This document shows positions 16,678 to 33,472 of a stretch of 38,731 nucleotides of DNA, piece after piece; positions within the stretch are counted from its first letter, which is position 1, and every line of letters begins with the position of its first letter. The stretch is from Bacillota bacterium (GTDB lineage Bacteria; Bacillota; Clostridia; Peptostreptococcales; Anaerovoracaceae): NCBI GenBank assembly GCA_017442785.1, contig JAFRZB010000017.1:1-38731 (forward strand). Direction: 5' to 3'. The notes below the pieces were generated by a model that did not search any database, was not told where the DNA came from, and was given only the letters and a program-made list of their open reading frames with translations. A program made the translations under genes and the position numbers.

Positions 16678-17114
16678 TCTTCCTCACCTCGTTCCTCGTA
16701 GACTATCGCCCTGTTGGGACAGCCCTTTACGCAGGCCGGCTCGCCGCAGCTGTTCTGAAGGCAGAGCTCGCATTTCTGCATCACCCCGTCTTCTCCCGGG
16801 GCCAGCGCTCCGTACGGGCAGACCAGTATGCAGGTAAAGCAGCTTACGCATTTGGCCCTGTCTATCTTTACTACTCCGCCTTCCTTGGAGATTGCCCCGG
16901 CTATGCAGCTCCTTACGCATATGGGGTCCTCGCAGTGCCTGCACGACACCGCGTAGCTTATTTTTTCGCCTTCCTCTATGTGGATGCGCGGGTATATGGG
17001 CTTGCCTTTGAGCGCCAGCGCCATGTCCTGCATGCCTGAGTTTGCGAAAGCGCAGTTGTACTCGCAGAGGTGGCAGCCCAGACACCATTCTTCGTTTACG
17101 TATACTCTTTTCAT
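16674..17114 (-). CDS. Four-cluster ferredoxin-type [4Fe-4S] protein
   Basis: A 146-residue electron-transfer protein of the HycB/CooF-like type with four Cys groups: CLGCHLCEYNC (Cys11, 14, 17, 21), CRHCEDPICVRSC, CVSCFTCILVC and CELCLQNSCGEPACVKGC. It likely holds up to four [4Fe-4S] clusters and relays electrons between the FAD subunit and the FMN-synthase subunit. The gene lies four bases after the synthase gene and overlaps the FAD gene by four bases. A role with external ferredoxin is possible. Confidence 0.92.
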   Translation of the reverse strand: MKRVYVNEEWCLGCHLCEYNCAFANSGMQDMALALKGKPIYPRIHIEEGEKISYAVSCRHCEDPICVRSCIAGAISKEGGVVKIDRAKCVSCFTCILVCPYGALAPGEDGVMQKCELCLQNSCGEPACVKGCPNRAIVYEERGEEE

Positions 17115-17118
17115 AAGA

Positions 17119-18624: not shown

Positions 18625-19718
18625 CAGTACGCACCGTCCTTTACTCTTACTATCACCGGTTCGCCTCCGGAAGGAGCCCAGATGTTCTCTGCGTAGGGCT
18701 CCATGGCCCTTATCGCGGCCTCCTCGCTGGCTATGAACACACGGTCGTCCTTTTCACCGACTACCATGGATCGGAGCTTCAGCCTGTCGTTTAGAGCCAT
18801 CAGGCCGCCCGTAAAGCCCAGAACTATGGAGAAAGGCCCTGTTATAAGAAGGCTCGGGAAGACCGTCCTCAGGTACTCCTGCTCCCGCCTCTCGTCCTTA
18901 TCGTATTCCTTTTCGATGGTGCTCCAGAAAGGCGCTGCCACGACGCTTGCCGCCTCCTTAAGCGTAAGGCCCTGCCTTCGCACCAGGTAGTCCATGATGT
19001 AGGTTATTACCTCGGTATCGGTCTTGAGAGTGCATTTGTAGCCGAACATCTCTATGAACCTGCGGTTGGCGTCGTAGCTTGAGATCTCACCGTTGTGCAC
19101 TATGGAGTAGTCCAGAAGCGTAAACGGATGAGCGCCGCCCCACCAGCCCGGAGTATTCGTAGGATACCTTCCGTGAGCGGTCCAGGAGTAGCCCTCGTAA
19201 TCCTCGAGCATGTAGAACCTGCCGACATCCTCCGGAAAGCCCACGGCCTTAAATGTCCCCATGTTCTTTCCGCTGGAGAAGACGTAGGCACCTGTAAGCT
19301 CCGTGTTGATCTTCATTACCATGCGCGCCACCAGCTCTTTTTCATCCAGCTGGAGCTCCAAAAGCATGGATCTGAGCGGAGACACAAAGTAGCGCCATAT
19401 CATGGGCTCGTCGGTTATCTCCGGGATCTTCCTTGTTGGGATGCGCTCGGAATGGACTACCTCGAAGTATTCCTTAAGAAGCGCCTCGCAGTCTTTTCTT
19501 GTAGTCCTGTCGTCGAAAAAAGTGTGCAGAGCATAGAAATCCTTATACTCCGGGTATATCCCGTAACCCGCAAAGCCTCCGCCAAGACCGTTGCTTCTCT
19601 CGTGCATGGGCTTCATGGCCTGCGTGATCATCTCGCCGGACATCTTCTTTCCGTCTCTGGAGATCACCGCCGCTATGGCGCAGCCTGACGGGATGCGTAT
19701 CTCTCCTTCTCTGTTCAT
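18624..19718 (-). CDS. Split glutamate synthase, class II glutamine amidotransferase subunit
   Basis: A 364-residue Ntn-type glutaminase that would supply ammonia from glutamine to the synthase subunit. The nucleophile is Cys13 in IRIPSGCAIAAV, not Cys2, so a 12-residue propeptide must be removed for activity. No start codon lies right before the Cys. Other family elements are RSNGLGGGFAGYGIYPEYKD, WTAHGRYPTNTPG and VHNGEISSYDANRR. It overlaps the ATP-grasp gene upstream by four bases and the synthase gene downstream by one base. Confidence 0.9.
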   Translation of the reverse strand: MNREGEIRIPSGCAIAAVISRDGKKMSGEMITQAMKPMHERSNGLGGGFAGYGIYPEYKDFYALHTFFDDRTTRKDCEALLKEYFEVVHSERIPTRKIPEITDEPMIWRYFVSPLRSMLLELQLDEKELVARMVMKINTELTGAYVFSSGKNMGTFKAVGFPEDVGRFYMLEDYEGYSWTAHGRYPTNTPGWWGGAHPFTLLDYSIVHNGEISSYDANRRFIEMFGYKCTLKTDTEVITYIMDYLVRRQGLTLKEAASVVAAPFWSTIEKEYDKDERREQEYLRTVFPSLLITGPFSIVLGFTGGLMALNDRLKLRSMVVGEKDDRVFIASEEAAIRAMEPYAENIWAPSGGEPVIVRVKDGAY

Positions 19719-22303
19719 AAGTCCGATCTCCTTTCAAGTGTTATCATAAGGCGCCCGCCGGCCATGTCGCTCATGGCTTTGCAGTCTGCGCCGGATACAT
19801 CGTAAACGTGCACTATGTCCGAGAGCTCCTCTCCGCCCTCGAACTCCCGGACCCTGTCCGGAAAAGCCTTAAGCATCTCCGGTGAGTACTTAAGAGTCTT
19901 TTCGTTGTTGAACACCGCGGTGTACAGTATCTCCGCCTCCACAAGGTCCTGGAATATGTGGCTTCCGTAGGACAGCTCCGGGTTGTAGCCTGCCTTGGTC
20001 TCTTCCGTCTCGCATATTATCTCGAACGCGCTGATGTCGGAGAACGCGGTCGGAACTCCGAGCTCCGGAGACGACGTCCCCACGCGGCCGGGAACTATCA
20101 GCATCATGTGCCTTCCTGCGTCGCGGTAATACCAGTTGATGCGGCCGATAAGGCCTGCCACCGACGGCTTGCTCTTAAACGGCATGTTATAGTAGCCTAC
20201 CAGGTCCACATACACTATGGTGTCCAGCTTCGAAGTCCTGGACATGCCCATCGAAGCGCCTTTGCTGCTGAGGAATATGTGCTCCGCCGGAATGTCCTCC
20301 GGGATGACGGTGGCCGACCCGCTCTTCTGCAGCTGCAGCGGACGGCACTGCAGAAGATCTATCGAGTATTCCCCGTCCTCGGATATGTTGATGGTAAACT
20401 CCGTGTCCACAGGATAGTCGTACTCATCCTGGATGCATCGCAGCATGCGGCGCATCTGCCCCATCAACTGCTCGTTCTCCACCAGCCCTTTGCAGGATAT
20501 GAACCTTACCTGCTGCCGGCGTCCGAGCTCCTGCAGCCTGTCTTCGGCCTCGTAATCGTGCTCCAGCAGGACTTTGCCCAGATAATCCGGTATCACCGGC
20601 TCTATCTGATAGAACGGGAGCTTCTCCAGCGAGCGCGACGCCATGTTTATGACTTCCGCCTTGCCCTGAGAGAACTTGTGCTTATCCGCAGAGGTGGAAT
20701 ACGAGGTCTTTTCCGGATCGTCCAGGTTCACCACGCGGGGATACGAGCCCTCCGTCCTGTCTACCGCAGATGTTCCAAGCCCCATTACCAGCCTCAGCAT
20801 CCCTGCCGCGGGATCTATGTCCTGCATTATACGGTACGGGCTGTAGGAATAGCCTACGCCCGCCGCGCAGGGCATGTAGTACTGGCCGTAGTAGGAGCCG
20901 GACACGCGCTGTATCAGCAGCGCCATCTGCTCATCGCGCTTGTCCAGGCCGCGCCTTTTGCGGTAGTCCAGGGCCGAAAGGCTCATGGAGCTTGCGTATA
21001 CTGTTTTTATTGCCTTTTCGAATTCGTCCAGCCTCTCCTCAAGGCTTCCTCTGTTAGCGCAGAACACGGATTCGTACTTGCCGGCAAAGGCGTTGCCGAA
21101 GCCGTCCTCAAGGATGCTACTGGACCTTATGATGTACGGGTCCTGCCCGTAATACTCTATGATCCTTATGAACTGCCGGCGCATCTCCTCGGAAAAGCTG
21201 CCTTTCGTGATCCTGTCCGAGAACTCACCGGCCAGTGCAAAGTAGCCTGCGTCGGTGCGCTGCCTTATGCGAAGATCCCAAAGGCCGTTATCTACTATAT
21301 AGGTGTAATAAACGTCGGAGCCCACGTAGAAGGAATCGTGCGGTTCAAGAACATCGCTTATATCCGGCTCGCTGTTGCGTATTATGGCTCTTGCAAGGAG
21401 CATGCCGCAGGCCTTGCCGCCTATCATTCCGGTGCCTATCATGTGGTCCCTTACGGCAAAGTAGTCGGACGGCACGAAATGCTTCTTTACCATGCTGCGC
21501 ATCTTGTCGTCGCGGGTCATCATGATGTCGCACATCCTGGCGCACTCATCCGTCATGTCAGCGCCGCTCTCGTTTAAGAGCTTTATGCGGTTGAAGAACC
21601 TGTCCCAGGAGTCGGAGTATTGTTCCTCAGCCGAGCGCTGAGCAAGGCCCAGCGCCTGATAGAACCTGCTGGACTGCACACCGTCGAGTATTGGCCTGAA
21701 GCTGCCGCTTGCCAGATCGTAGATGTGCGGAAGGAACATGGTCTCGGAGCTGCGGTTCCAGACCTTTTCCGGACGCACGTATATGTTCCTCTTGTCCGAG
21801 TACACATCTATGAAAAGCTGCGTGGTATCCAGGATCTTGTTTACCGCCTGCACGGAATGCTTGCCCCGAATTATGGGGAAGAACGCTACAGTGTCGAGTA
21901 TAAAGAGGAACGGACAGGTGACCTTGAAGAAGTTCCCCATCATCAGGTCCGTTGCCCATGCGGCCTGCAGCTCCGAAAGGCAGTCGAAGACATAGAACGC
22001 GTCGAAGCCTTCCTTTTCTATAATGTTATGGATGTCTACGGTAAAGGTCTCGAACCTGTGGGAGAGCGGGACCTTTACGGTCTTTACCTCCGGGCGGTCC
22101 TTTATCAGGGGCTCGTGGCTGGCGAACCTGAAGTAGATGATGTTGCGCTTATCCTTTATCGCCTGCTCCACATAAGGCTCCATGAACAGCCTGAACTGCG
22201 AAAGGTCCGATACGCGGAACACTACATTGTCGCCCAGTCTTATGTTGTCGAAAGCCTCATCCATCTCGGGGATGCCGCTCTTTACTCTTTCGAACGCCGC
22301 CAT
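19715..22303 (-). CDS. PPDK-type ATP-grasp protein with degenerate KaiC-like N-domain
   Basis: An 862-residue protein heading the glutamate synthase operon. Residues 1-190 resemble a KaiC/RAD55 RecA-like domain: VKSGIPEMDEAF matches the KaiC opening, and DAFYVFDCLSEL looks like the Walker-B strand. However, the P-loop is absent, replaced by VFRVSDLSQF. Residues about 285-680 are the PEP-synthase/pyruvate-phosphate-dikinase nucleotide-binding domain (GGKACG 295-300, IIRSSSILEDGFGNAFAGKY 391-410, then a late IDLLQCRPLQ). The phospho-histidine and pyruvate-binding barrel domains are missing. The C-terminus has GRVGTSSPELGVPTAF and PELSYGSHIFQDLVEAE. The reaction is unknown; a phosphotransfer or energy-sensing role in glutamate synthesis is a guess. 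AGGAGG stands five bases before the ATG. Confidence 0.8.
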   Translation of the reverse strand: MAAFERVKSGIPEMDEAFDNIRLGDNVVFRVSDLSQFRLFMEPYVEQAIKDKRNIIYFRFASHEPLIKDRPEVKTVKVPLSHRFETFTVDIHNIIEKEGFDAFYVFDCLSELQAAWATDLMMGNFFKVTCPFLFILDTVAFFPIIRGKHSVQAVNKILDTTQLFIDVYSDKRNIYVRPEKVWNRSSETMFLPHIYDLASGSFRPILDGVQSSRFYQALGLAQRSAEEQYSDSWDRFFNRIKLLNESGADMTDECARMCDIMMTRDDKMRSMVKKHFVPSDYFAVRDHMIGTGMIGGKACGMLLARAIIRNSEPDISDVLEPHDSFYVGSDVYYTYIVDNGLWDLRIRQRTDAGYFALAGEFSDRITKGSFSEEMRRQFIRIIEYYGQDPYIIRSSSILEDGFGNAFAGKYESVFCANRGSLEERLDEFEKAIKTVYASSMSLSALDYRKRRGLDKRDEQMALLIQRVSGSYYGQYYMPCAAGVGYSYSPYRIMQDIDPAAGMLRLVMGLGTSAVDRTEGSYPRVVNLDDPEKTSYSTSADKHKFSQGKAEVINMASRSLEKLPFYQIEPVIPDYLGKVLLEHDYEAEDRLQELGRRQQVRFISCKGLVENEQLMGQMRRMLRCIQDEYDYPVDTEFTINISEDGEYSIDLLQCRPLQLQKSGSATVIPEDIPAEHIFLSSKGASMGMSRTSKLDTIVYVDLVGYYNMPFKSKPSVAGLIGRINWYYRDAGRHMMLIVPGRVGTSSPELGVPTAFSDISAFEIICETEETKAGYNPELSYGSHIFQDLVEAEILYTAVFNNEKTLKYSPEMLKAFPDRVREFEGGEELSDIVHVYDVSGADCKAMSDMAGGRLMITLERRSDL

Positions 22304-22321: not shown

Positions 22322-22360
22322 AAAAAACGCGCTCCATCAGTAAAGATGAAACGCCATTGC
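22322..22360 (-). promoter_or_regulatory. Attenuator-like leader of the glutamate synthase operon
   Basis: On the minus strand GCAATGGCGT (22360-22351) begins a 10-bp hairpin: GCGTTTCATC (22354-22345) pairs with GATGGAGCGC (22338-22329) around the six-base loop TTTACT. After one G comes TTTTTT (22327-22322). The hairpin plus T-run ends nine bases before the ribosome site, so it would stop transcription before the first gene unless disrupted. The 5' block GCAATGGCGT matches the leaders of the GSIII and glmS operons. The loop sequence is not shared. Confidence 0.65.
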
Positions 22361-22386
22361 TTCAACAGTTCTTAATTTATATACGT

Positions 22387-22469: not shown

Positions 22470-22497
22470 TTGACACCACCAAAAAACAGAGTATAAT
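22470..22497 (+). promoter_or_regulatory. Sigma-A promoter of the GSIII-amt-purF operon
   Basis: TTGACA (22470-22475) and TATAAT (22492-22497) are perfect consensus hexamers with a 16-base spacer. Transcription would start near 22504, only a few bases before the conserved leader block. With both hexamers perfect and a long structured leader, control is more likely to act after initiation than on promoter strength. Confidence 0.8.
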
Positions 22498-22506
22498 GCA
22501 TTGCAT

Positions 22507-22558
22507 AAAGGCAACGGCGTCTATGAGTCAGCAGGCTCATGGGCGCCTTTTATCTTTT
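22507..22558 (+). promoter_or_regulatory. GSIII leader, first hairpin with terminator-like tail
   Basis: The block AAAGGCAACGGCGTCT (22507-22522) opens a continuous 13-bp helix: GGCGTCTATGAGT (22516-22528) pairs with GCTCATGGGCGCC (22535-22547), counting three G-T pairs, around the six-base loop CAGCAG (22529-22534). TTTTATCTTTT follows directly. It therefore has the form of an intrinsic terminator about 120 bases before the gene. AAAGGC (22507-22512) can alternatively pair with GCCTTT (22545-22550), giving a possible competing structure. The same 5' block and helix plan recur before glmS. Confidence 0.75.
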
Positions 22559-22588
22559 GATAAAGACTGCGGAATTGAATACGTATAG

Positions 22589-22636
22589 AAAGGCAAAGGC
22601 GTCTTTTGTGTTCACACGAAAGGAGTCTCTGCCTTT
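22589..22636 (+). promoter_or_regulatory. GSIII leader, second tandem hairpin
   Basis: AAAGGCAAAGGCGTCT (22589-22604) repeats the first leader block with one change. AAAGGCA (22589-22595) pairs with TGCCTTT (22630-22636), and inside, CTTTTGTG (22603-22610) pairs with CACGAAAG (22615-22622) across a TTCA loop. It ends about 28 bases before the ribosome site and has only a weak T-rich tail. Two related hairpins in tandem in one leader is the layout expected of an ANTAR-controlled or other two-state attenuator. Confidence 0.65.
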
Positions 22637-22677
22637 ATTCATTTATTCCGGAAGTAAGAGAGAAAAGGAGAAAAGAA

Positions 22678-24774
22678 ATGAGTACCGTATCTGATTATTT
22701 TGGAAGCCTTGTATTCGATGACCGCGTCATGCGCGCAAACCTCTCCGCCGAAGTGTACGGATCGCTGCGCAAGACCATAGACGAAGGAAAAGAACTGGAC
22801 ATCAGCGTAGCCAACGCGGTGGCTTCAGCCATGAAGGACTGGGCCGTAGCGCACGGGGCCACGCATTTCACACATTGGTTCCAGCCGCTTACAGGCATCA
22901 CCGCTGAAAAACACGACAGCTTCATTACCAGATCCCCGGACGGAAGCGTCATCATGGAGTTCTCCGGCAAGGAGCTGATTAAGGGCGAGCCGGACGCTTC
23001 GTCCTTCCCGAGCGGCGGCCTTAGGGCGACCTTCGAAGCGCGCGGTTATACCGCATGGGACCCGACCTCCTACGCATTCATAAAAGGGAAGACGCTTTGC
23101 ATCCCCACGGCATTCTGCGCTTACGGAGGACAGGCCCTCGATAAGAAGACCCCGCTTCTGCGCTCGATGGAGGTCCTGAGCAAGCAGGCCTTAAGGATAC
23201 TCCGCCTGTTCGGAAACGACACTGCAAAGCGCGTCGTCTCCTCCGTAGGCCCGGAGCAGGAATACTTCCTTATCACTAAGGAGATGTACGATAAGCGCCC
23301 GGACCTTCGCTTTACGGGACGCACGCTGTTCGGTGCCAAGCCCCCTAAGGGACAGGAGCTGGACGACCACTACTTCGGAGTCATAAAGCCGGGCGTTGCG
23401 GCCTTCATGGAAGACCTTAACGACGAGCTGTGGAAGCTCGGCATACTCGCAAAGACAGAACACAACGAGGTGGCTCCCGCGCAGCACGAGCTCGCCCCGA
23501 TATATACCACTACCAATGTCGCCACGGACCACAACCAGCTGACCATGGAGATAATGCAAAAAGTCGCCGCTAAGCACGGCCTTGTGTGCCTGCTCCACGA
23601 AAAGCCGTTCGCCGGCGTCAACGGATCCGGCAAGCACAACAACTGGTCCATAGCAACAGACAGCGGTCAGAACCTGCTGTCCCCGGGAGAAACGCCTTAC
23701 GAGAACGCTCAGTTCCTGCTCTTCCTATGCGCTGTGATAAAAGCCGTGGACGACTACCAGGATCTGCTGAGGCTCTCCGTAGCCACCGCCGGAAACGATC
23801 ACCGCCTTGGCGCTAACGAAGCGCCGCCGGCAGTGGTATCCATGTTCCTGGGCGACGAGCTGAACGCAGTCCTTGAGGCGATAGAAAAGGACAAGCCCTA
23901 CGCCGGAACTCAGAAGACCCAGATGAAGCTTGGCGTGGACGTGCTCCCCAAGTTCAACAGGGACACCACGGACCGCAACAGGACCTCTCCGTTCGCTTTT
24001 ACCGGCAACAAGTTCGAGTTCAGGATGCTCGGTTCTTCCAACAGCATCGCCTGCGCCAACATAATGCTCAACAGCGCCGTAGCGGAATCCCTTCGCATCT
24101 ACGCCGACAGGCTCGAAAAGGCAAAGGACTTCGAGGACGCGCTGCACAAGATGATCAGAAAGACCATCAAGGACCACAAGAGGATCATATTCAACGGAAA
24201 CGGCTACGACGACGCGTGGATAAAGGAAGCGACTGAAAAGCGCGGGCTCTGCAACTACCGCACCACGGCGGACTGCATGCCTCACCTTCTGGACAAGAAG
24301 AACGCGGACATGCTCATCTCGCTTGGGGTATTCACCGATGAAGAGCTGCGCTCCAGGCGCGACATCATGCTTGAGAACTACTGCAAGAGCGTGGTCATAG
24401 AGGCCAACACCATGGTGGACATGGCCCGCACCCAGATAGCGCCGGCCATAGAAAGCTACGCTGCAGACGTGGCGAAGGCAGCCTCCGCAAAGAAGGCCGT
24501 TGCGTCCGGGCTCAAGTGCTCCTACGAGAAGGGCCTCGTGGAGAAGCTCTCCGGTCTCATAGACGAGATAGCTGAAAAGACCGAAGAACTTGACGCCGCG
24601 ATAATAAAGATCCACGACGCGGAAGACATCATAGAGGAATCCGAGATGGTAAGGGATACGCTGCTTCCGATAATGAGCGAGCTGCGCGTGCCCTGCGACA
24701 AAGCGGAGCTGCTTACGGCAAAGAGCTACTGGCCGTTCCCGACCTACGAGGATCTCCTGTTCGGAGTTAAATAA
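22678..24774 (+). CDS. glnN: Type III glutamine synthetase
   Basis: A 698-residue GSIII, the normal length of this class, which makes glutamine from glutamate and ammonia in the cytoplasm. It opens MSTVSDYFGSLVFDDRVM. Class-typical blocks are WFQPLTGITAEKHDSF, GPEQEYFLITKEMY, APAQHELAPIYTTTNVATDH, CLLHEKPFAGVNGSGKHNNWS and FTGNKFEFRMLGSSNS; the C-terminal 100 residues are helical. ATG 22678 is chosen because AAGGAG lies seven bases before it; a longer open frame would begin inside the leader hairpin. It is the first gene of a six-gene unit and is followed after 21 bp by the ammonium transporter. Confidence 0.95.
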   Translation: MSTVSDYFGSLVFDDRVMRANLSAEVYGSLRKTIDEGKELDISVANAVASAMKDWAVAHGATHFTHWFQPLTGITAEKHDSFITRSPDGSVIMEFSGKELIKGEPDASSFPSGGLRATFEARGYTAWDPTSYAFIKGKTLCIPTAFCAYGGQALDKKTPLLRSMEVLSKQALRILRLFGNDTAKRVVSSVGPEQEYFLITKEMYDKRPDLRFTGRTLFGAKPPKGQELDDHYFGVIKPGVAAFMEDLNDELWKLGILAKTEHNEVAPAQHELAPIYTTTNVATDHNQLTMEIMQKVAAKHGLVCLLHEKPFAGVNGSGKHNNWSIATDSGQNLLSPGETPYENAQFLLFLCAVIKAVDDYQDLLRLSVATAGNDHRLGANEAPPAVVSMFLGDELNAVLEAIEKDKPYAGTQKTQMKLGVDVLPKFNRDTTDRNRTSPFAFTGNKFEFRMLGSSNSIACANIMLNSAVAESLRIYADRLEKAKDFEDALHKMIRKTIKDHKRIIFNGNGYDDAWIKEATEKRGLCNYRTTADCMPHLLDKKNADMLISLGVFTDEELRSRRDIMLENYCKSVVIEANTMVDMARTQIAPAIESYAADVAKAASAKKAVASGLKCSYEKGLVEKLSGLIDEIAEKTEELDAAIIKIHDAEDIIEESEMVRDTLLPIMSELRVPCDKAELLTAKSYWPFPTYEDLLFGVK

Positions 24775-24795
24775 AGGTTAAAAAGGTAATTACAT

Positions 24796-26520
24796 ATGTC
24801 AGTTGAATTCTGGTTTTTGATAGGCGCCGCATTAGTCTTCTGGATGCAGGCCGGGTTCGCGATGGTGGAGACAGGTTTTACCAGGGCCAAGAACGCCGGC
24901 AACATCATAATGAAGAACCTCATGGACTTTTGCATAGGCACCGTAGTCTTCTCTTTGCTCGGATACTCCCTGATGATGGGCGAGGACGCGTTCTTCGGCC
25001 TTATCGGGATACCCAATCTGGAGCTGTTCACGCATTTTAAGGAGTTCATAGCCTCCCCCGCCGACGGCTTTACGGACGCGAGCTACTTCGTGTTCAACCT
25101 GGTGTTCTGCGCTACTACCGCAACGATAGTATCCGGAGCCATGGCCGAAAGGACCAAGTTCTCGGCGTACTGCGTGTACTCGGGAGTAATAAGCCTTGTG
25201 ATCTATCCCATAGAAGCGCACTGGATCTGGGGCGGCGGCTGGCTGAGCAGGCTGGGCTTCCACGATTACGCGGGCTCCTGCGCCATACATATGGTAGGCG
25301 GCATAGCAGCGCTGATAGGCGCCATACTTCTTGGACCGCGCATCGGCAAATACGTTACCGATAAAAACGGCAAGGTCACCAAGGTAAACGCCATACCCGG
25401 CCATTCAATCCCGCTGGGCGCGCTGGGCGTGTTCATACTCTGGCTCGGCTGGTATGGCTTCAACGGAGCTGCGGCAACGTCGGTATCGGAGCTCTCTTCG
25501 ATATTCCTGACCACTACCATAGCACCCTCCGTAGCTACCTGCACCACCATGATCTACACCTGGATAAAGAACGGCAAGCCGGATGTATCCATGTGCCTGA
25601 ACGCCTCTCTTGCGGGGCTCGTGGGAGTTACCGCAGGCTGCGACGCATTCGACGCCTTAGGCGCCGCGGTCGTAGGCATAGTCTCCGGAATACTTGTCGT
25701 AGTAGTCGTAGAGACGCTTGACCTTAAGCTCCATGTAGACGATCCGGTCGGTGCCGTTGGAGTGCACTGCGCTAACGGCATCTGGGGCACCATTGCCGTA
25801 GGGCTTCTGGCAAACCCGGACGCTCCGGCAGGCCTTTCCGGACTGCTCTACACAGGAAGCTTTAATCAGCTGGGCCTGCAGTTATTAGGATTTATTGCCG
25901 TAGCAGCCTGGGCAGCCGTTACCATGACGGTATTCTTCAGGATACTTAAGAAGGCGGACTTCCTTCGGGCAGAGCCTGCGGACGAGCTTTCCGGCCTTGA
26001 CATAAGCGAGCACGGACTTCCCAGCGCCTACGCGGACTTCATGCCGGCAGTCGATAAATACGCCGAGTTCGGCACGGGCGATCAGATAGTCGCCGTCACG
26101 GGGACTACGCCAGTAGCGGAAGCCGTACCCGTAAAGCGCGAAGCTGCATTCAGGGCTGACGGTCACAAGTTCACCAAGGTGGAGATCGTCTTTAAGGAAG
26201 AAAAGCTCTACGCTCTTAAGGACGCCATGAGCAAGCTCGGGATCACCGGCATGACGGTATCCCACGTAATGGGCTACGGCATGCAGAAAGGACACACCGA
26301 ATACTACAGAGGCGTCGCGGTGGAGACGGACCTTAGGCCTAAGGTCCAGGTGGACATAGTCGTATCCAAGATACCTGTGCGCGACGTCATAGAGACCGCC
26401 AAGAAGGTCCTTTATACAGGCCACATCGGCGACGGCAAGATATTCGTATACGACGTGGAGAACGTTGTAAAGGTGCGCACCGGCGAGGAGGGCTACGATG
26501 CTCTTCAGGACGTCGAATGA
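24796..26520 (+). CDS. amt: Ammonium transporter fused to a PII signal domain
   Basis: A 574-residue fusion. Residues 1 to about 400 are an Amt channel with eleven membrane segments; the pore histidines lie in CAIHMVGGIAALIGA and VGVHCANGIWGTIAVG, and FWMQAGFAMVETGFTRAKNAGN is the family signature. After a linker, residues 457-574 are a PII (GlnB/GlnK) domain with T-loop GYGMQKGHTEYYRGV (Tyr504 at the modifiable position) and B-loop TGHIGDGKIFV. In other bacteria free PII plugs Amt when nitrogen is plentiful; here the brake is covalently attached. No separate glnB/glnK gene is in the window. Its end overlaps purF by 23 bases. Confidence 0.95.
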   Translation: MSVEFWFLIGAALVFWMQAGFAMVETGFTRAKNAGNIIMKNLMDFCIGTVVFSLLGYSLMMGEDAFFGLIGIPNLELFTHFKEFIASPADGFTDASYFVFNLVFCATTATIVSGAMAERTKFSAYCVYSGVISLVIYPIEAHWIWGGGWLSRLGFHDYAGSCAIHMVGGIAALIGAILLGPRIGKYVTDKNGKVTKVNAIPGHSIPLGALGVFILWLGWYGFNGAAATSVSELSSIFLTTTIAPSVATCTTMIYTWIKNGKPDVSMCLNASLAGLVGVTAGCDAFDALGAAVVGIVSGILVVVVVETLDLKLHVDDPVGAVGVHCANGIWGTIAVGLLANPDAPAGLSGLLYTGSFNQLGLQLLGFIAVAAWAAVTMTVFFRILKKADFLRAEPADELSGLDISEHGLPSAYADFMPAVDKYAEFGTGDQIVAVTGTTPVAEAVPVKREAAFRADGHKFTKVEIVFKEEKLYALKDAMSKLGITGMTVSHVMGYGMQKGHTEYYRGVAVETDLRPKVQVDIVVSKIPVRDVIETAKKVLYTGHIGDGKIFVYDVENVVKVRTGEEGYDALQDVE

Positions 26521-27943
26521 CAGACATTTAAACGAAGAATGCGGGGTGTTCGGGATATGGTCCCGGACACCCTTTGGGCTTGCGAACGTAGTCTACTACG
26601 GGCTTTACGCTCTGCAGCACAGGGGCCAGGAGAGCGCAGGGATAGTAGTCAATGACGACGGAACTTTCCGCGCCTGCAGAGAGCTCGGGCTTGTAAGCGA
26701 GGTGTTCTCGCATGAAAAGTTGGATGCCCTCGGGACAGGCGGAATAGCGGTCGGACATGTACGCTACGCCACGACCGGTGACGACAGCAGACGCAACATC
26801 CAGCCTCTTCTTATAAACCACCGCAAAGGAAGGATGGCTCTTGCGCACAACGGAAACCTCACCAACTCTTCCGCACTCAGGAAGGCTCTGGAAGACAGAG
26901 GCTCCATCTTCCATACCACTACGGATTCTGAAGTCATAGCGTACATCATAGTCCAGGAAAGGCTCAGGCAGGGCAGCATAGAGCAGGCTGTGGCCTCCGC
27001 GATGGACATACTCGAAGGCGCCTATTCGCTGGTCATATCATCGCCCAGTAAGCTGATAGGAGCCCGAGATCCTTACGGATTCAGGCCGCTTTGCATGGGA
27101 CGCCGCCCGGACGGGAGCGTCATTCTAGCCTCAGAGACCTGCGCGCTGGATGCAGTGGGAGCAGAGTTCGTAAGGGACATAGAGCCCGGAGAAGTGGTGA
27201 CCGTAAGCAGCGAAGGAATAAGCTCCGATAAGAGCCGCTGCGGCAAATGTCCCAAACGTCTGTGCGTATTTGAATACATTTACTTTGCCAGACCGGATTC
27301 CGTAATTGACGGAAGGAGCGTCTGCCTTGCGCGTCAGCAGGCGGGAGCGTTCCTTGCGCAGGAGCACCCGGTAGAGGCAGACGTGGTGATAGGCGTTCCG
27401 GATTCCGGGCTTGACGCCGCCATAGGATACGCCGGCGCCTCCGGCATCCCCTACGCCATAGGCTTTACAAAGAATAAGTACATAGGCAGGACTTTCATAG
27501 CGCCGTCCCAGGACCAAAGAGAGTCCGGCGTGGACATAAAGCTAAACCCAATAAAAGCAGTGGTGGAAGGAAAGCGGGTAGTCCTTATAGACGACTCCAT
27601 AGTGCGCGGAACTACCTGCCGAAGGACCATAGAAACGCTGAGAAAAGCAGGCGCGGCAGAGATCCACATGAGGGTAAGCGCGCCGCCGTTCATATCCCCC
27701 TGCTATTACGGCACGGACATCGACAGCGACGAAGGCCTTATAGCAAACCACCACACACCGGAGGAGATCGCAAAGATCATAGGCGCGGATTCCCTCGGAT
27801 ACCTGAGCCTTCAGCACGCAATGCAGATGGCAGGAGGCTCCGGGACCGTATGCACAGCATGCTTCAGCGGAGAATATCCCACAGCTATACCGGATCTGTC
27901 TTCAAAGGACCGGTTCGAAAAAAAGATACACTCAGAGGACTGA
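26498..27943 (+). CDS. purF: Amidophosphoribosyltransferase
   Basis: A 481-residue enzyme for the first committed step of purine synthesis: glutamine plus PRPP to phosphoribosylamine. The Ntn glutaminase begins at Cys15 after a 14-residue propeptide (LNEECGVFG). RGQESAG and AHNGNLTNS are its substrate loops. The PRPP motif is VVLIDDSIVRGTT. Cys in RLCVFEYIYFARPDS, SPCYYGTD and TVCTACFSGEYP match the [4Fe-4S] ligands of the Bacillus-type enzyme, which is oxygen-labile. GAGGAGG stands six bases before the ATG, inside the amt gene. The other early purine genes are not nearby, so PurF is placed with glutamine supply rather than with its pathway. Confidence 0.95.
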   Translation: MLFRTSNDRHLNEECGVFGIWSRTPFGLANVVYYGLYALQHRGQESAGIVVNDDGTFRACRELGLVSEVFSHEKLDALGTGGIAVGHVRYATTGDDSRRNIQPLLINHRKGRMALAHNGNLTNSSALRKALEDRGSIFHTTTDSEVIAYIIVQERLRQGSIEQAVASAMDILEGAYSLVISSPSKLIGARDPYGFRPLCMGRRPDGSVILASETCALDAVGAEFVRDIEPGEVVTVSSEGISSDKSRCGKCPKRLCVFEYIYFARPDSVIDGRSVCLARQQAGAFLAQEHPVEADVVIGVPDSGLDAAIGYAGASGIPYAIGFTKNKYIGRTFIAPSQDQRESGVDIKLNPIKAVVEGKRVVLIDDSIVRGTTCRRTIETLRKAGAAEIHMRVSAPPFISPCYYGTDIDSDEGLIANHHTPEEIAKIIGADSLGYLSLQHAMQMAGGSGTVCTACFSGEYPTAIPDLSSKDRFEKKIHSED

Positions 27944-27944
27944 T

Positions 27945-29528
27945 ATGTGTTCGATAATAAGCTACTGCAGGGCGGACGTGCCGCCCGAAAAGATACAGGA
28001 GAGCCTGGACAGGACCGCTTCCAGAGGCCCCGACGGGAGCCGTGTCATAGATACCGGCAAAGGACTCATGGGCTTTCGAAGGCTTTCAATAATGGGTCTT
28101 ACTCCTTCCGGAATGCAGCCTTTCGAGCTGGACGGAAGCTACGTGGTCTGCAACGGAGAGCTCTACGGATTCGAAAAGCAGCGTGAGGAGCTGAAGAAAA
28201 AGGGCTATACCTTCAAAAGCGACAGCGACTGCGAGGTGATCCTCCCCATGTTCCGCGAGTACGGCACGGACATGTTCTCCATGCTGGACGCGGAATTCGC
28301 CTGCGTCATCTACGACGGAGACTGCGGAGAGTTCATCGCCGCGAGGGACCCCATAGGCATACGGCCCCTCTACTACGGGTGCGACGGGAGCGGCGCTATG
28401 ATCTTCGCCAGCGAAGCAAAGAACCTTGTGGGACTTACCGAAAAGATAATGCCCTTCCCTCCGGGACACTACTGGAGGGAAGGCTGCTTCTGCCGCTACG
28501 CGGACATGACAAAAGTCGACGAGGTCTGCCATGACGATCTTGAGACCGCATGCAAAAAAATACGCGAAAAGCTTATATGCGGAGTAAAAAAGCGTCTTGT
28601 ATCCGACGCGAAGGTGGGCTTCCTGCTCTCCGGAGGACTGGATTCCTCCCTGGTCTGCGCCATAGCGGCAAAGGAGAGCAAGGAGCCTGTAAAGACCTTT
28701 GCCATAGGCATGAGCGAGGACGCAATAGACCTTAAATACGCAAAGCAGGCAGCAGACTTCATTGGGGCCGACCACACGGAAGTATATATGACGCCGGAGG
28801 AAGTCATCGGCACGCTGGAAGAGCTCATTGCGCTTCTCGGCACCTTTGACATCACCACTATACGCGCCAGCATGGGCATGTACCTTGTGTGCAAAGCAAT
28901 TCATGAAAAAAGCGACATAAGAGTGATACTCACAGGAGAGATCTCTGACGAGCTCTTCGGATACAAATATACGGATTTTGCGCCTTCTGCGGAGGAGTTT
29001 CAAAAAGAGGCCGAAAAGCGCATACGCGAGATCCACATGTACGACGTGCTCAGAGCCGACCGCTGCATATCGGTAAACTCGCTGGAGGCGCGCGTTCCCT
29101 TCGGAGACCTGGACTTTGTAAAATACGTCATGAGCCTGGATCCGGAGATGAAGATGAACAGGTACAACAAGGGAAAATACCTTCTGCGCCACGCCTTCGA
29201 GGGCCTGAGGTATCTTCCGGACAACATACTCTGGCGCGAAAAGGCCGCCTTCTCCGACGCCGTGGGGCACTCCATGGTGGACTACCTCAAGGAATACGCG
29301 GAGGCGAAGTATACGGACGAAGAATTTGAGAAGCTTTGCGGCAAATACATCCACGCAAGGCCTTTCACCAAGGAATCTCTGCTCTACCGGGAGATATTCG
29401 AAAAGTACTACCCTGGCCAGTCAGAGATGATAGCGGACTTCTGGATGCCCAACAAGTCCTGGGAGGGATGCGACGTAGACGATCCTTCCGCCAGAGTGCT
29501 TTCGAACTACGGGGAGAGCGGAAAATGA
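27945..29528 (+). CDS. asnB: Asparagine synthetase (glutamine-hydrolysing)
   Basis: A 527-residue AsnB converting aspartate, glutamine and ATP to asparagine. The glutaminase nucleophile is Cys2 (MCSIISY); RTASRGPDGS, VVCNGELYG and FAARDPIGIRPLYYG-like elements mark the Ntn domain. The synthetase domain has the PP-loop SGGLDSS (229-235) and later ILTGEISDELFGYKY. Length fits the bacterial/plant short form. It starts one base after the purF stop and overlaps dapF by four bases, so it is firmly inside the operon. Confidence 0.92.
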   Translation: MCSIISYCRADVPPEKIQESLDRTASRGPDGSRVIDTGKGLMGFRRLSIMGLTPSGMQPFELDGSYVVCNGELYGFEKQREELKKKGYTFKSDSDCEVILPMFREYGTDMFSMLDAEFACVIYDGDCGEFIAARDPIGIRPLYYGCDGSGAMIFASEAKNLVGLTEKIMPFPPGHYWREGCFCRYADMTKVDEVCHDDLETACKKIREKLICGVKKRLVSDAKVGFLLSGGLDSSLVCAIAAKESKEPVKTFAIGMSEDAIDLKYAKQAADFIGADHTEVYMTPEEVIGTLEELIALLGTFDITTIRASMGMYLVCKAIHEKSDIRVILTGEISDELFGYKYTDFAPSAEEFQKEAEKRIREIHMYDVLRADRCISVNSLEARVPFGDLDFVKYVMSLDPEMKMNRYNKGKYLLRHAFEGLRYLPDNILWREKAAFSDAVGHSMVDYLKEYAEAKYTDEEFEKLCGKYIHARPFTKESLLYREIFEKYYPGQSEMIADFWMPNKSWEGCDVDDPSARVLSNYGESGK

Positions 29529-30316
29529 GATTCACGAAGATGCAGGGGCTGGGAAACGATTACCTGTATGTATACGGAGATGTGCCGGAAGACATAGAGA
29601 ACCTTTCAAGAATGCTGTCCGACAGACATTTCGGCGCAGGATCCGACGGGATGATATACATATCCACATCGGAAGCCGCGGATTTTAAGATGCGTATCTT
29701 CAACGCGGACGGAAGCGAAGCCATGATGTGCGGAAACGGCATACGCTGCGTGGGAAAGTACGTCTACGATAAAGGTTACACCGATAAGACGCGCCTTACC
29801 ATCGAAACGCTGTCCGGGATAAAGACTCTGGATCTGGACATACGCTGCGGCAGGGTAAGGTTCGTTTCCGTGGACATGGGGCGGGCCGAGGTAAGCGATG
29901 AAATGGAGATCCCTGTCGGAGAAGACATTGTGATCTGCACTCCGGTAAGCGTCGGAAACCCCCACGCGGTGATCTTTATCTCAGATATTGAAAAGGCCCC
30001 GGTATCAGCGCTCGGGCCTCAGCTGGAGAAACACAGCTTTTTCCCCGGCGGAGTCAACGTGGAATTCGTGCAGGTGATCTCGGACCGGAAGCTCCGCATG
30101 AGAGTCTGGGAGCGCGGGAGCGGCATCACCATGGCCTGCGGCACAGGTGCCTGCGCATCCGCTGCTGCGGCGGTCCGAAAAGGATACTGCAGATACGGAG
30201 AGCCGGTAACGGTGGTCCTGGACGGAGGGGAGCTTAAGATAAGCGTAAGCCCTGACGGCAGCATTACCATGAGCGGCCCGGCGGAATTCGTCTATGAAGG
30301 TGAGGTGCAGGAATGA
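29525..30316 (+). CDS. dapF: Diaminopimelate epimerase
   Basis: A 263-residue enzyme that converts LL- to meso-diaminopimelate for lysine and cell-wall synthesis. The paired catalytic cysteines are Cys69 in MMCGNGIRC and Cys205 in MACGTGAC; the start MRFTKMQGLGNDYL is the family N-terminus. ATG 29525 overlaps the asnB stop as ATGA. The following aminotransferase makes its substrate, so both steps of the short DapL route are adjacent. Confidence 0.95.
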   Translation: MRFTKMQGLGNDYLYVYGDVPEDIENLSRMLSDRHFGAGSDGMIYISTSEAADFKMRIFNADGSEAMMCGNGIRCVGKYVYDKGYTDKTRLTIETLSGIKTLDLDIRCGRVRFVSVDMGRAEVSDEMEIPVGEDIVICTPVSVGNPHAVIFISDIEKAPVSALGPQLEKHSFFPGGVNVEFVQVISDRKLRMRVWERGSGITMACGTGACASAAAAVRKGYCRYGEPVTVVLDGGELKISVSPDGSITMSGPAEFVYEGEVQE

Positions 30317-31500
30317 CTACTCCTAACATGCATTACGCGGATCTTAAGGATTCCTATCTTTTCTTCCATATAGCCCGGAAGACGAAGGCTTATCTTGATG
30401 CCCACCCGGGGACTCACCTTTACCGCTTGGGGATAGGAGACGTTTCTCTGCCCCTTTGCAAGGCCGTAATAAAGGCGCTCCATGAGGCAGTGGACGACCA
30501 GGCCTTAAAGGAGACCTTCCACGGCTACGTCTCCGAGCTTGGGCTCCCGGAGCTTAGATCCGCCATTGCGCAGCACTACAGAAAAAGAGACATCGGCCTT
30601 TCCGATGACGAGGTGTTCGTTTCGAGCGGGGCAAGCGATGAGCTTGGAGACATACTGGACCTTTTCGACAGATCCTCCTGCGCGCTCATAACAGAGCCGG
30701 CCTACCCCGCCTACGTGGACGCCAATGTTATAGCAGGAAGAGAGATAGTCCACCTGGCCTCGGGAAGGGAGAACGGATTCCTTCCCTCTCCGAGCCCGGA
30801 TACAAAGGCGGATATAATATACATCTGCTCTCCTAACAACCCCACCGGAGCGGTCTTCAGCAGACAGCAGCTTAAGGAATGGGTGGACTTTGCGAACGCG
30901 AATTCTTCCGTGATACTGTTTGACGCGGCCTATGAAGCGTTCATAGAAGATCCGGACCTTCCGAGGAGCATATTCGAGATCGAAGGCGCAAGGAAGTGCG
31001 CCATAGAGATATGTTCTCTTTCCAAGACGGCCGGCTTTACAGGGACAAGGCTCGGCTACACCGTCATACCTAAGGATCTGATCAGGAAAGGTATGTGCTT
31101 CAACGACATGTGGATACGCAACAGGACCACAAAGACCAACGGCGTGTCTTACATCATACAGAAAGGCGGAGCGGCGGTATTTACCGAAGAAGGACAGCGC
31201 CAGATACGCGGGAACATAGAGTATTACAAGGAAAACGCGCGGATACTGATGTGCGCCCTGGATAAGGCAGGGATATGGTACTGCGGCGGAAAGAACGCTC
31301 CGTACATATGGCTTCGCTGCCCGAACGGAATGGGAAGCTGGGAGTTTTTCGATTACCTCTTAAATGAGATACAGGTCGTGGGGACACCGGGAGAAGGCTT
31401 CGGAGCGTGCGGAGAAGGATATTTCAGGTTCTCCACCTTCGGAAGCCGTGAGGACACCGTCCGGGCGGCGGAAAGGCTGATCCGGCTCCTGGGCGACTGA
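30313..31500 (+). CDS. dapL: LL-diaminopimelate aminotransferase
   Basis: A 395-residue PLP-dependent class I/II aminotransferase that makes LL-diaminopimelate directly from tetrahydrodipicolinate using glutamate as amino donor. It begins NMHYADLKDSYLFFHIARK, close to the known DapL N-terminus. CSPNNPTGAVF (172-182) and the PLP lysine Lys238 in SLSKTAGFTGTRLGY are clear. It overlaps dapF by four bases (ATGA). It is the last gene of the GSIII operon; beyond it a weak 5-bp inverted repeat (CTGCG 31503-31507 with CGCAG 31527-31531) without a T-run precedes the glmS promoter. Confidence 0.93.
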   Translation: MTTPNMHYADLKDSYLFFHIARKTKAYLDAHPGTHLYRLGIGDVSLPLCKAVIKALHEAVDDQALKETFHGYVSELGLPELRSAIAQHYRKRDIGLSDDEVFVSSGASDELGDILDLFDRSSCALITEPAYPAYVDANVIAGREIVHLASGRENGFLPSPSPDTKADIIYICSPNNPTGAVFSRQQLKEWVDFANANSSVILFDAAYEAFIEDPDLPRSIFEIEGARKCAIEICSLSKTAGFTGTRLGYTVIPKDLIRKGMCFNDMWIRNRTTKTNGVSYIIQKGGAAVFTEEGQRQIRGNIEYYKENARILMCALDKAGIWYCGGKNAPYIWLRCPNGMGSWEFFDYLLNEIQVVGTPGEGFGACGEGYFRFSTFGSREDTVRAAERLIRLLGD

Positions 31501-31539
31501 ACCTGCGCGGAAGGTCCGGGGTCTTTCGCAGAATTTAAG

Positions 31540-31569
31540 TTGACAGAAGGCCTTTACGGGGTGCATAAT
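31540..31569 (+). promoter_or_regulatory. Sigma-A promoter of the glmS-pur operon
   Basis: TTGACA (31540-31545) and CATAAT (31564-31569) are separated by 18 bases. The transcript should start near 31576, three bases before the conserved leader block, giving a leader of only about 73 bases. Confidence 0.65.
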
Positions 31570-31578
31570 TACCTTGTA

Positions 31579-31634
31579 AAAGGCAATGGCGTCTTTGGGT
31601 CCGGAGACTCATTTGACGTCTGTTTTTTCTTTTT
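31579..31634 (+). promoter_or_regulatory. Attenuator-like leader of glmS, related to the GSIII leader
   Basis: AAAGGCAATGGCGTCT (31579-31594) matches the GSIII block at 15 of 16 bases. GGCGTC (31588-31593) pairs with GACGTC (31615-31620); after a small TT/TTT internal loop, TGGGT (31596-31600) pairs with ACTCA (31607-31611) around the six-base loop CCGGAG. A T-rich tail, TGTTTTTTCTTTTT, follows at 31621-31634, ending just before the weak ribosome site AGAGG (31638-31642). Compared with the GSIII helix, several pairs differ on both sides (ATGAG/CTCAT against TGGGT/ACTCA), which supports a conserved fold rather than only a conserved sequence. The structure is a strong terminator candidate. Confidence 0.75.
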
Positions 31635-31648
31635 GACAGAGGTATCAT

Positions 31649-33472
31649 ATGTGCGGAATTGTCGGATTTACAGGTGAACAGAGCGCAGCGCCCATCCTTT
31701 TGGACGGGCTTAAGAAACTGGAGTACAGGGGCTACGACTCCGCGGGCATAGCCGTGATGGACAAGGGCTGCATCTCCGTAAACAAGGTGACGGGGCGCAT
31801 CGCAAATCTTTGCGAGAAGACCCGCGACGGAGCCGCAGTCCAGGGAGCCGCCGGCATAGGCCACACCCGCTGGGCTACCCACGGGGCTCCCACGGAGGAG
31901 AACGCGCACCCGCACCTGAGCAACGACGGACGCTTTGCCGTGGTCCACAACGGAATAATAGAAAACTACCTCGCCCTAAGGGACGAGCTGATAAAGGACG
32001 GCTACCACTTCGACAGCGAGACCGATACTGAGGTTATAGTGCACCTCATAGAGATGTACTACAAGGGGGACATGAGAGACGCCCTTATCCGGACCGCCAA
32101 CCGCCTTAGAGGCTCCTACGCCCTTGGCGTCATCTGCTCCGAAGAGCCCGGAAAGCTCTACGCGGTGCGCGAGGCCAGTCCCCTTATACTGGGCGTGGGC
32201 GTGGACGAGAACTATTTCGCCTCAGACGTCACGGCGCTGGTAAACTACACCAGGAATGTCATATACCTTGAGGACGGAGAGTTCGCGGAGCTTTCGAAAA
32301 ACTCGGTAAAGGTCTTCGACTGCCTGGGAAAGCCGGTGGATAAAAAGGTAAGCCGCATACTCTGGGACGTTCAGGCTGCCGAAAAAGGCGGCTACGAGCA
32401 CTTCATGCTGAAAGAGATAATGGAACAGCCCGGAGCCGTAAAGGCTACCATTTCGCCCAGGATAAAGGACGGAAAGATAGTATTTGAGGAGCTTAAGCTT
32501 ACCGCAAAAGAGCTTCTTAGGATAAGAAAGATAGTGATCACCGCCTGCGGCTCAGCTTACTACGCGGGCTGCGCCGCAAGATACGCCCTTGAAAGGATAA
32601 GCCACATACCCGTGGAGGTGGAGCTTGCCAGCGAGCTCAGGTACAGCGACCCCATGATAGACAGCCATACGCTGCTTATAGTAATATCCCAGTCCGGCGA
32701 GACGGCCGATACCATTGCCGCCCTGAAGGAGTGCAAGGCCAGGGGCGCAAAGACGCTCGCCGTGGTAAACGTCGTGGGAAGCACCGTCGCGAAGCTTGCG
32801 GACAATGTCATATATACATGGGCAGGCCCCGAGATAGCCGTGGCCACCACCAAGGGCTATACCACCCAGGTGGCCGTTCTCTGCATGCTCGCGGTATGGC
32901 TTGCGGACAGGATGGGCATGGAAGACGACAACTACCAGCGGCACGTCAGGGAGCTGCAGGCCCTTCCCCGCATGATACAGCAGGCCATAGACATGAACTC
33001 CTCAATTCCGTCTCTTGCAAAGAAGTACCACGAGAGCAAGTCCCTGTTCTTCATAGGAAGGAATACGGACTACGCGGTGTCTTTGGAGGGAGCTCTTAAG
33101 ATGAAGGAGATATCATACCTTCACTCCGAGGCCTACGCCGCGGGAGAGCTTAAGCACGGCACCATAGCCCTTATAGAAGAGCACACGCCCGTAATAGCGC
33201 TCTGCTGCAATCCGGCCATCATGGAAAAGACTCTGAGCAACATCATAGAGGTAAAGTCCAGAGGCGCGGAGGTGCTGGCTCTTACGTTCAAAAACAACCA
33301 GAAGATAGTATCCGTGGCGGACGATCTGATGTTCATCCCCAAAGTCGACCCCCTGTTCTCCGCAGTTGTGGAGATAGTTCCCCTGCAGCTGCTTGCTTAT
33401 TACGTTGCAAAGGAAAATAAATGCGATATAGATAAACCTAAAAATCTTGCAAAATCTGTTACCGTGGAATAA
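31649..33472 (+). CDS. glmS: Glutamine-fructose-6-phosphate aminotransferase
   Basis: A 607-residue enzyme making glucosamine-6-phosphate from fructose-6-phosphate and glutamine, the entry to cell-wall amino sugars. Cys2 (MCGIVGFTG) is the glutaminase nucleophile, with YRGYDSAG and GHTRWATHG. Two SIS sugar-isomerase domains follow ([31 protein letters not shown]), and it ends LAKSVTVE as expected. Full length. It begins a second operon with purC 47 bp downstream. No room exists for the glmS ribozyme used by many Bacillota; a GSIII-like leader is there instead. Confidence 0.97.

Follow-up and report, generated by a model that had tools for sequence, protein, structure and literature searches.

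Candidate ANTAR-controlled antiterminators with a single hexaloop at the head of nitrogen and amidotransferase operons in Clostridia

The window analysed here, 38,731 nt of contig JAFRZB010000017.1 (assembly GCA_017442785.1) from a Bacillota bacterium of the family Anaerovoracaceae, carries four short leader elements, labeled A to D, and the gene of an ANTAR protein that is their candidate regulator. On the plus strand the gene order is type III glutamine synthetase (GSIII; 22678..24774, PF12437), an ammonium transporter fused to P-II in one frame (Amt-PII; 24796..26520, PF00909 and PF00543), PurF amidophosphoribosyltransferase (26498..27943), AsnB asparagine synthase (27945..29528), DapF and DapL, and next GlmS (31649..33472), PurC, PurA, PurB and GuaA. 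On the minus strand lie split glutamate synthase (GOGAT) genes with the gene of a PPDK_N protein (14708..22303), a gene for a GSI-type glutamine synthetase (GS)-like protein in which the flap glutamate is replaced by lysine (13475..14683), and the gene of an ANTAR protein with a degenerate receiver domain (12872..13456), which is the sole ANTAR match in the genome (80% complete). From their strand and spacing, the genes of 14708..22303 appear to form one operon with the ANTAR gene, which stands downstream of them and of the GS-like gene, with element D at the operon's head. The amidotransferase, FMN and GXGXG parts of the glutamate synthase are separate genes (14708-19718, minus strand), and a ferredoxin-like gene and a pyridine-nucleotide oxidoreductase gene lie between them.

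The segment AAAGGCAANGGCGTC was found in three exact copies in the whole genome assembly (1.73 Mb, 80.35% complete), all of them inside the window, at 22507, 22589 and 31579. At 22507 and 31579 the segment AAAGGCAANGGCGTCT begins 9 nt 3' of a -10-like box (22492-22497 and 31564-31569), so that an earlier sequence-only reading, which had placed a shared segment immediately after the predicted starts of the GSIII and glmS leaders, was correct on this point. That reading had overlooked the third exact copy (element B, 22589), which lies in the same GSIII leader as element A. A scan for hexaloop hairpins overlapping terminators identified the fourth element, D, which lies on the minus strand (22364-22347) and is diverged. 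The genome total is thus four such elements, all in the window, with two before GSIII, one before glmS and a weaker one before the GOGAT/GS-like/ANTAR operon. Within the window, four matches to the motif were found at up to three mismatches, compared with a shuffle mean of 1.19, and four were reached in 2 of 100 shuffles. A search of the genome at up to two mismatches gave 59 matches and showed no excess over the reversed-pattern control (84), so exact copies alone count.

The segment AAAGGCAANGGCGTCTTT itself folds as a short hairpin, in which the arms AAAGGC and GTCTTT enclose the hexaloop AANGGC with A at position 1 and G at position 4. The predicted promoter of the GSIII operon consists of a -35 box TTGACA (22470..22475), which is kept in two congeners, and a consensus -10 box TATAAT (22492..22497), and is followed by the predicted antiterminator hairpin of element A (AAAGGC-AACGGC-GTCTAT, 22507..22524), the terminator stem of element A (22516..22547, -25.2 kcal/mol), which overlaps this hairpin in its loop and 3' arm, and a T-rich tail (22548..22558). 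Element B has a predicted antiterminator hairpin (AAAGGC-AAAGGC-GTCTTT, 22589..22606) that is identical in this genome and the two congeners, in which element A varies, and folding predicts for it a long alternative hairpin (22589..22636) with the weak T tail ATTCATTTATT. The glmS promoter (TTGACA at 31540..31545 and CATAAT at 31564..31569) precedes the predicted antiterminator hairpin of element C (AAAGGC-AATGGC-GTCTTT, 31579..31596), its terminator stem (31588..31620) and a T-rich tail (31621..31635). Element D, on the minus strand, has a predicted antiterminator hairpin TGAAGC-AATGGC-GTTTCA (22347..22364) and a terminator stem (22329..22354) followed by a T run (approximately 22327-22316); this terminator and T run lie just ahead of the site at which ribosomes probably bind the message of the divergent operon.

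The GGCGTC that opens the terminator helix at 22516 and 31588, and that closes with GGCGCC (22542-22547) and GACGTC (31615-31620), is the pairing that the sequence-only reading had described, and both this helix and its T-rich tails were found as claimed. That pairing is the terminator, however, and the alternative hairpin formed by the shared motif had been missed. Because both structures use the loop and the 3' arm, which lie inside the 5' arm of the terminator, the hexaloop hairpin and the terminator exclude each other. In the elements that were folded, the 18 nt hairpins have energies of about -3 to -4 kcal/mol and the full terminators of -16 to -38 kcal/mol. ANTAR target RNAs have been described by a rule that puts A at position 1 and G at position 4 of the hexaloop (Ramesh 2012, PMC3369931; Walshe 2022, PMC8934654), and as in those targets the hexaloop here overlaps an intrinsic terminator. 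All four window elements satisfy this hexaloop rule.

The six-base apical loops of the two terminators can indeed be read as CAGCAG and CCGGAG, as the earlier reading had them, but its proposed CNGNAG signature fails. The GSIII leaders of two congeners have CAGCGG and CAGATG, a congener's glmS leader has TTACTG, and two other genomes have TTTATA and TGAAAA. The conserved loop is instead the 5' one, AANGGC, inside the shared motif.

A covariance model was built from 11 elements on the terminator fold and was run on 197 genomes of the family and 196 of the class. On the window's own genome it gave six matches at E<=5, each of which was one of the four elements or its reverse strand. The exact motif was present in 9 of the 197 family genomes, in two of which the match was a coding coincidence (L032, L035). 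The terminator stem covaries in the alignment of relatives. Covarying homologues before nitrogen genes were the test that the sequence-only reading had set, and such homologues were found, preceding GSIII, amt-PII, gltB, gdhA and amidotransferase genes. Among the family genomes, 11 were matched at E<=1e-5, seven of which had supplied model seeds, and all 11 have an ANTAR match, compared with 56 of the 197 overall (Fisher 4.6e-7). Matches in two family genomes (G164, G149) are doubtful; one (L083) pairs at 2/6 and the other (L084) at 5/6 positions, with a loop that is not of the usual form. In the class sample, 12 of the 13 genomes matched at E<=1e-5 and 25 of the 28 matched at E<=1e-3 have an ANTAR match, compared with 100 of the 196 overall (Fisher 5.8e-6 for the latter); the window's own genome, a seed, is included in both counts. 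Two of the three exceptions in the class are matches that lack the hexaloop stem (L279, L280), and the third is G237.

At the 52 non-seed loci matched by the model, taken without selection, 71.2% of the cells of the hexaloop stem were paired compared with 60.3% after shuffling, and changes on both sides of a pair numbered 37 compared with 14.8; neither figure was reached in 2000 shuffles (0/2000 in each case), in which kinship was ignored. All five inner pairs were kept in 25 of the 52 loci and at least four in 33, and the changed stems included AAGCAC/GTGTTT, TACAGC/GCTGTG, GTGAGC/GTTCAC and TAGAAC/GTTCTT. A selected subset of 44 sites, with 14 loci fewer, gave 30 sites with five inner pairs and 81.1% pairing compared with 68.8%; the unselected figures of the 52 loci are the weaker ones. 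As the 5' arm is also able to pair in the outer terminator stem, covariation of this arm serves both folds.

A pattern scan with one genome per species gave at least 117 loci and at least 125 matches. Of the 125 matches listed, 17 (at 17 loci) were dropped by judgement as coding, being inside long frames, mostly outside Clostridia and in several cases transketolase-like, which left 108 elements; all counts for these elements given below are among the matches listed. The 16-mer recurs by codon chance in frames that by eye are transketolase-like (L139, L140, L155, L195, L205), which is a trap for motif scans. At one locus (L127) two element copies stand about 150 nt apart (121-155 and 269-306, minus strand), and in the stretch examined no gene could be resolved downstream of them. 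Among the first 50 genomes, taken from 100 non-coding loci of the matches listed, 48 have an ANTAR match, compared with 100 of the 196 genomes of the class sample, a baseline that is unmatched for kinship.

Sixty of the 108 listed elements lie directly 3' of a TTGACA/TATAAT-like promoter, as do 25 of 2160 random positions. The spacer is 17 nt in 49 of these 60, and the distance from the end of the -10 box to the hairpin is 8-11 nt in 55, so the hairpin is predicted to start within a few nucleotides of the first base of the transcript. Element D differs, as its best promoter leaves 22 nt 5' of the hairpin. This narrow spacing bears on the possibility that the leaders are plain terminators or 5' stabilising stem-loops that are unregulated, and that their shared sequence reflects recent duplication. 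The high stability of the hairpins (-16 to -38 kcal/mol) is consistent with such an explanation, and some model matches do resemble ordinary terminators without a hexaloop stem (L279, L280, L284). Nevertheless, we regard it as extremely improbable, because a terminator that comes with a conserved exclusive hairpin and stands between a promoter and central-metabolism genes would hardly be neutral, and because the element recurs in many families with covariation, with the spacing of 8-11 nt in 55 of the 60 listed promoter-adjacent elements, and with the tie to ANTAR genes.

The elements do not have two hairpins joined by a short linker, as known ANTAR targets do, but one hexaloop each, and it could be argued that a second hexaloop was overlooked, for example a tandem copy or an apical loop, and that these are canonical dual-hexaloop targets. 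GSIII leaders often have two copies, and in 24 of the 48 listed elements that are not promoter-adjacent another A1/G4 hexaloop lies 62-108 nt upstream, as would be the case if they were second tandem copies. Among the 60 promoter-adjacent elements listed, however, a second A1/G4 hexaloop with a stem of at least 5 bp was found within 40 nt downstream in 3 and at 41-200 nt in 13, and one of this kind within 120 nt upstream in 3, and the glmS leader of the window has a single copy. Adding 20 nt between the hairpins abolished EutV antitermination, and two hexaloops were needed in vivo (Walshe 2022, PMC8934654), which makes it improbable that copies separated by about 80 nt work as one pair. Dual-hexaloop leaders with terminators do occur in the same family, but beside ANTAR genes of the Tyr or Phe type described below, in 3 of 17 loci (L221, L222 and L247, in G102, G177 and G084); three apparent duals in 37 loci of the His type have weak upstream partners with 3 Watson-Crick pairs. 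The overlooked second hexaloop therefore has little chance of being the explanation.

The genes 3' of the 108 listed elements, assigned by best match to the window proteins, were GSIII (56), Amt-PII (9), AsnB (4), PurA, GlmS, GltB-type and GuaA (2 each) and GSI, DapL-like and PPDK_N (1 each), and 28 had no such match. The GltB-type gene at L181 gave a glutamate synthase match that falls below the cut-off of that model. Eight of the unmatched proteins were scanned with NCBIfam and gave CTP synthase (2), glutamate dehydrogenase (1), diaminopimelate epimerase (1) and a GlnQ-like ATPase below the cut-off (1), with no family for two; further unmatched genes were assigned by eye. Genes downstream of elements in relatives thus include GSIII, amt-PII, gltB, gdhA, asnB, pyrG, guaA, purA and glmS. 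In one genome (G237; L265, L290, L291) tandem elements precede a frame that was judged by eye to be glutamine-amidotransferase-like.

A regulon this rich in glutamine enzymes could also be expected if the leaders were metabolite riboswitches or T-box-like leaders that sense glutamine or ammonium directly, without a protein, and elements in genomes without an ANTAR match (G237 and 2 of the 50 motif genomes among the matches listed) would fit such a mechanism. We consider this very unlikely. No Rfam family matched the window at gathering score, and at E<=10 nothing credible was found in the GSIII leader, where L10_leader and glutamine-riboswitch matches were far below their cut-offs; the glutamine riboswitch (RF01739) scored 13.1 bits compared with the required 35, and at another place in the leader. 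The elements are about 50 nt long and consist of two simple hairpins that exclude each other; apart from the hexaloop no conserved pocket was seen, and the co-occurrence of the elements with ANTAR genes is strong.

The sequence-only reading had held that the factor was not known from the sequence. The 5' hexaloop is of the ANTAR-target type, and the sole ANTAR gene lies 9 kb away, in an operon headed by the same kind of element. The ANTAR domain of the encoded protein (PF03861) scores 62 bits compared with the curated cut-off of 27.3, placing it in the family, and the Response_reg domain scores 27.8 bits, under the Pfam cut-off of 30.2. In this receiver the phosphoacceptor aspartate has become asparagine and the acidic pair is gone, so it is not a phosphorylatable receiver of the EutV type. 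In most element-linked ANTAR proteins the phosphoacceptor aspartate is lost (Asn in most cases, Gly or Ser in a second group), as is the acidic pair; those of L249, L304 and L306 retain the aspartate. By alignment the element-linked proteins mostly have histidine at the position of EutV Tyr164 (numbering from Walshe 2022, PMC8934654), as does AmiR. Among the 25 class genomes with both a model match at E<=1e-3 and an ANTAR match, alignment places 18 in the His-type, degenerate form, profile score alone adds 3, and the remaining 4 encode a Tyr- or Phe-type protein. A restriction of the element to one ANTAR clade was considered and rejected, since the second pseudo-receiver group (G297, G388, G221, G242, G270, G374, G330, G344, G358) and Tyr- or Phe-type proteins (G249, G257, G287, G356) also co-occur with it. 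Near His-type ANTAR genes, a single hexaloop with a terminator was found at 31 sites in 44 loci (at least one in 23 loci), compared with 3.2 on average in shuffles and 3 in the reversed control; some of these loci contain model seeds, and nine were chosen because their genomes stood out in the model and ANTAR surveys. Near Tyr- or Phe-type genes there were 3 sites in 17 loci, compared with 0.7 in shuffles and 0 reversed. Seven of the His-type loci (L232, L234, L238, L242, L254, L257, L341) yielded no further element.

Taken together, the sequences make it very probable that each leader is a transcription antiterminator with a single hexaloop under ANTAR control. Antitermination by the window's own ANTAR protein is strongly supported by the comparative evidence, and the protein encoded nearby is most likely what flips the switch. 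In this model RNA polymerase would first transcribe AAAGGC-AANGGC-GUCUUU, which would form the short hairpin at the 5' end of the message or close to it. An active ANTAR protein (12872-13456) would hold this hairpin and keep GGCGUC from the terminator, allowing read-through into the GSIII/amt-PII/purF/asnB genes, the glmS/pur/guaA genes and the operon with the GOGAT, GS-like and ANTAR genes, so that the ANTAR protein would be autoregulated. With the protein inactive, GGCGUC would pair with the downstream GRCGYC and transcription would stop at the T run. The direction of control is presumably on when nitrogen or glutamine is short. The proposal of the sequence-only reading, a common nitrogen- or glutamine-responsive switch, is thus well supported as regards a shared termination switch on nitrogen genes, and its choice of signal is one that we still infer. 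Element B, with its weak T run, may affect translation or pausing more than termination.

Several observations weigh against ANTAR-controlled antitermination by single hexaloops. In the hexaloop stem of element A the second pair is an A-A mismatch, and the best fold of this hairpin retains four pairs (-2.7 kcal/mol); the T run of element B is poor; and element D is weak in the covariance model, ranking fifth in the window (17.2 bits, E=0.02) with E=0.9 in the genome, with weak model matches at its place in two congeners (L076, L077). The seed alignment shows no covariation of the hexaloop stem, as is expected because the seeds were chosen by the exact motif. Nineteen of the 52 non-seed loci keep fewer than four inner pairs, most of these being plain terminators, coding matches or poorly anchored sites. 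At all sites used for the covariation of the hexaloop stem, the conservation of the loop is circular because they were anchored on AANG, which does not apply to the pairing. Four of the 25 element genomes with an ANTAR match have a Tyr- or Phe-type protein, G237 carries real tandem elements but no ANTAR match, and 2 of the 50 motif genomes among the matches listed have no ANTAR match; for G237 and these two, assembly gaps are possible. Finally, one hexaloop was found here, whereas known ANTAR targets require two for antitermination in vivo.

Because the receiver of the window ANTAR protein lacks the residues for phosphorylation, its activator is probably a partner protein instead of a kinase. 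A GSI-type gene directly adjoins the ANTAR gene in 27 of the 44 His-type loci; in 16 of the other 17 another window-type gene is nearby (resembling, by best match, GuaA, PurF, AsnB, GSIII or Amt-PII, in one case with only 29% identity), and in the last the contig ends at the ANTAR gene. The flap glutamate, which we take to be E304 in B. subtilis numbering, is kept in 9 of these 27 ANTAR-linked GSI-type proteins and is gone in 18, being Lys in 11 (including that of the window), Arg in 1, Asp in 5 and missing in 1, while the other catalytic glutamates are mostly kept; Asp at this position may be conservative. Two more GS-like genes are present in the window's own genome, of which one is GSIII and the other lies on a different contig. 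The adjacency of GSI and ANTAR genes and the frequent loss of the flap glutamate make it plausible, by analogy with AmiC for AmiR, that a degenerate GS is the sensor. We offer it as a tentative and rather doubtful extension that a catalysis-deficient GSI serves as a glutamine sensor that binds the adjoining, phosphorylation-dead ANTAR protein, which would act on single 5' hexaloops of nitrogen operons of some dozen types across Clostridia, its own included. No AmiC counterpart was found directly beside the window ANTAR gene among the Pfam matches. An NMT1-like protein, presumably of the fold class of NasS, is encoded about 5 kb from the ANTAR gene (7218-8213, minus strand); its gene adjoins a DctM permease gene, which makes a role as transporter receptor likelier than one as partner of the ANTAR protein.

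The closest known systems share some of these features. The eut leaders of Enterococcus faecalis, controlled by EutV/EutW, resemble the window elements in the A1/G4 hexaloop, the overlap of antiterminator and terminator, the ANTAR protein and the nitrogen theme (PMC3369931, PMC8934654), but they have two hexaloops, both required, where the window elements have one, and EutV is activated by phosphorylation and has a stacking Tyr164 that aligns with histidine in the window protein. AmiR/AmiC of Pseudomonas aeruginosa likewise combines a pseudo-receiver ANTAR protein, with histidine at the Tyr164 position, and control by a partner, but the AmiR target RNA has been treated as dual (Ramesh 2012, PMC3369931). 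That ANTAR proteins control nitrogen genes is already known: targets precede P-II, amt and glutamate/glutamine synthase genes in Desulfotomaculum and Pelobacter (PMC3369931), and an ANTAR gene in the GS-GOGAT cluster of C. thermocellum (Clo1313_2030) has been described with reference to nitR of a solvent-producing Clostridium, as a proposed ammonia-sensitive antiterminator (PMC4676874). The available part of the latter paper describes for these two proteins no single-hexaloop RNA target or wide amidotransferase regulon. The covariance search of Ramesh 2012 (PMC3369931) defined the motif as two hairpins, so that single-hexaloop elements fall outside its definition. Among the titles listed in a literature search that covered few subscription papers, none concerned a single-hexaloop ANTAR leader before GSIII or a GS-like ANTAR partner, except that Walshe 2022 covers the single hexaloop as such. 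Within that literature we found no report of the transcript-initial, single-hexaloop form, its spread in Clostridia or the amidotransferase regulon.

In gut and rumen Clostridia, where this version of the switch is common, one hairpin appears to be enough, whereas known ANTAR targets use two. In the current model two hexaloops are needed and the first recruits the protein before the terminator forms, and it has been proposed that one hexaloop is the minimal site (Walshe 2022, PMC8934654). A natural class that is widespread and has a single hexaloop where the message begins allows the two-hexaloop model to be tested directly and would bear out that proposal. For gut and rumen Clostridia, the system is a candidate master switch that would link ammonium uptake, glutamine synthesis and the enzymes that consume glutamine.

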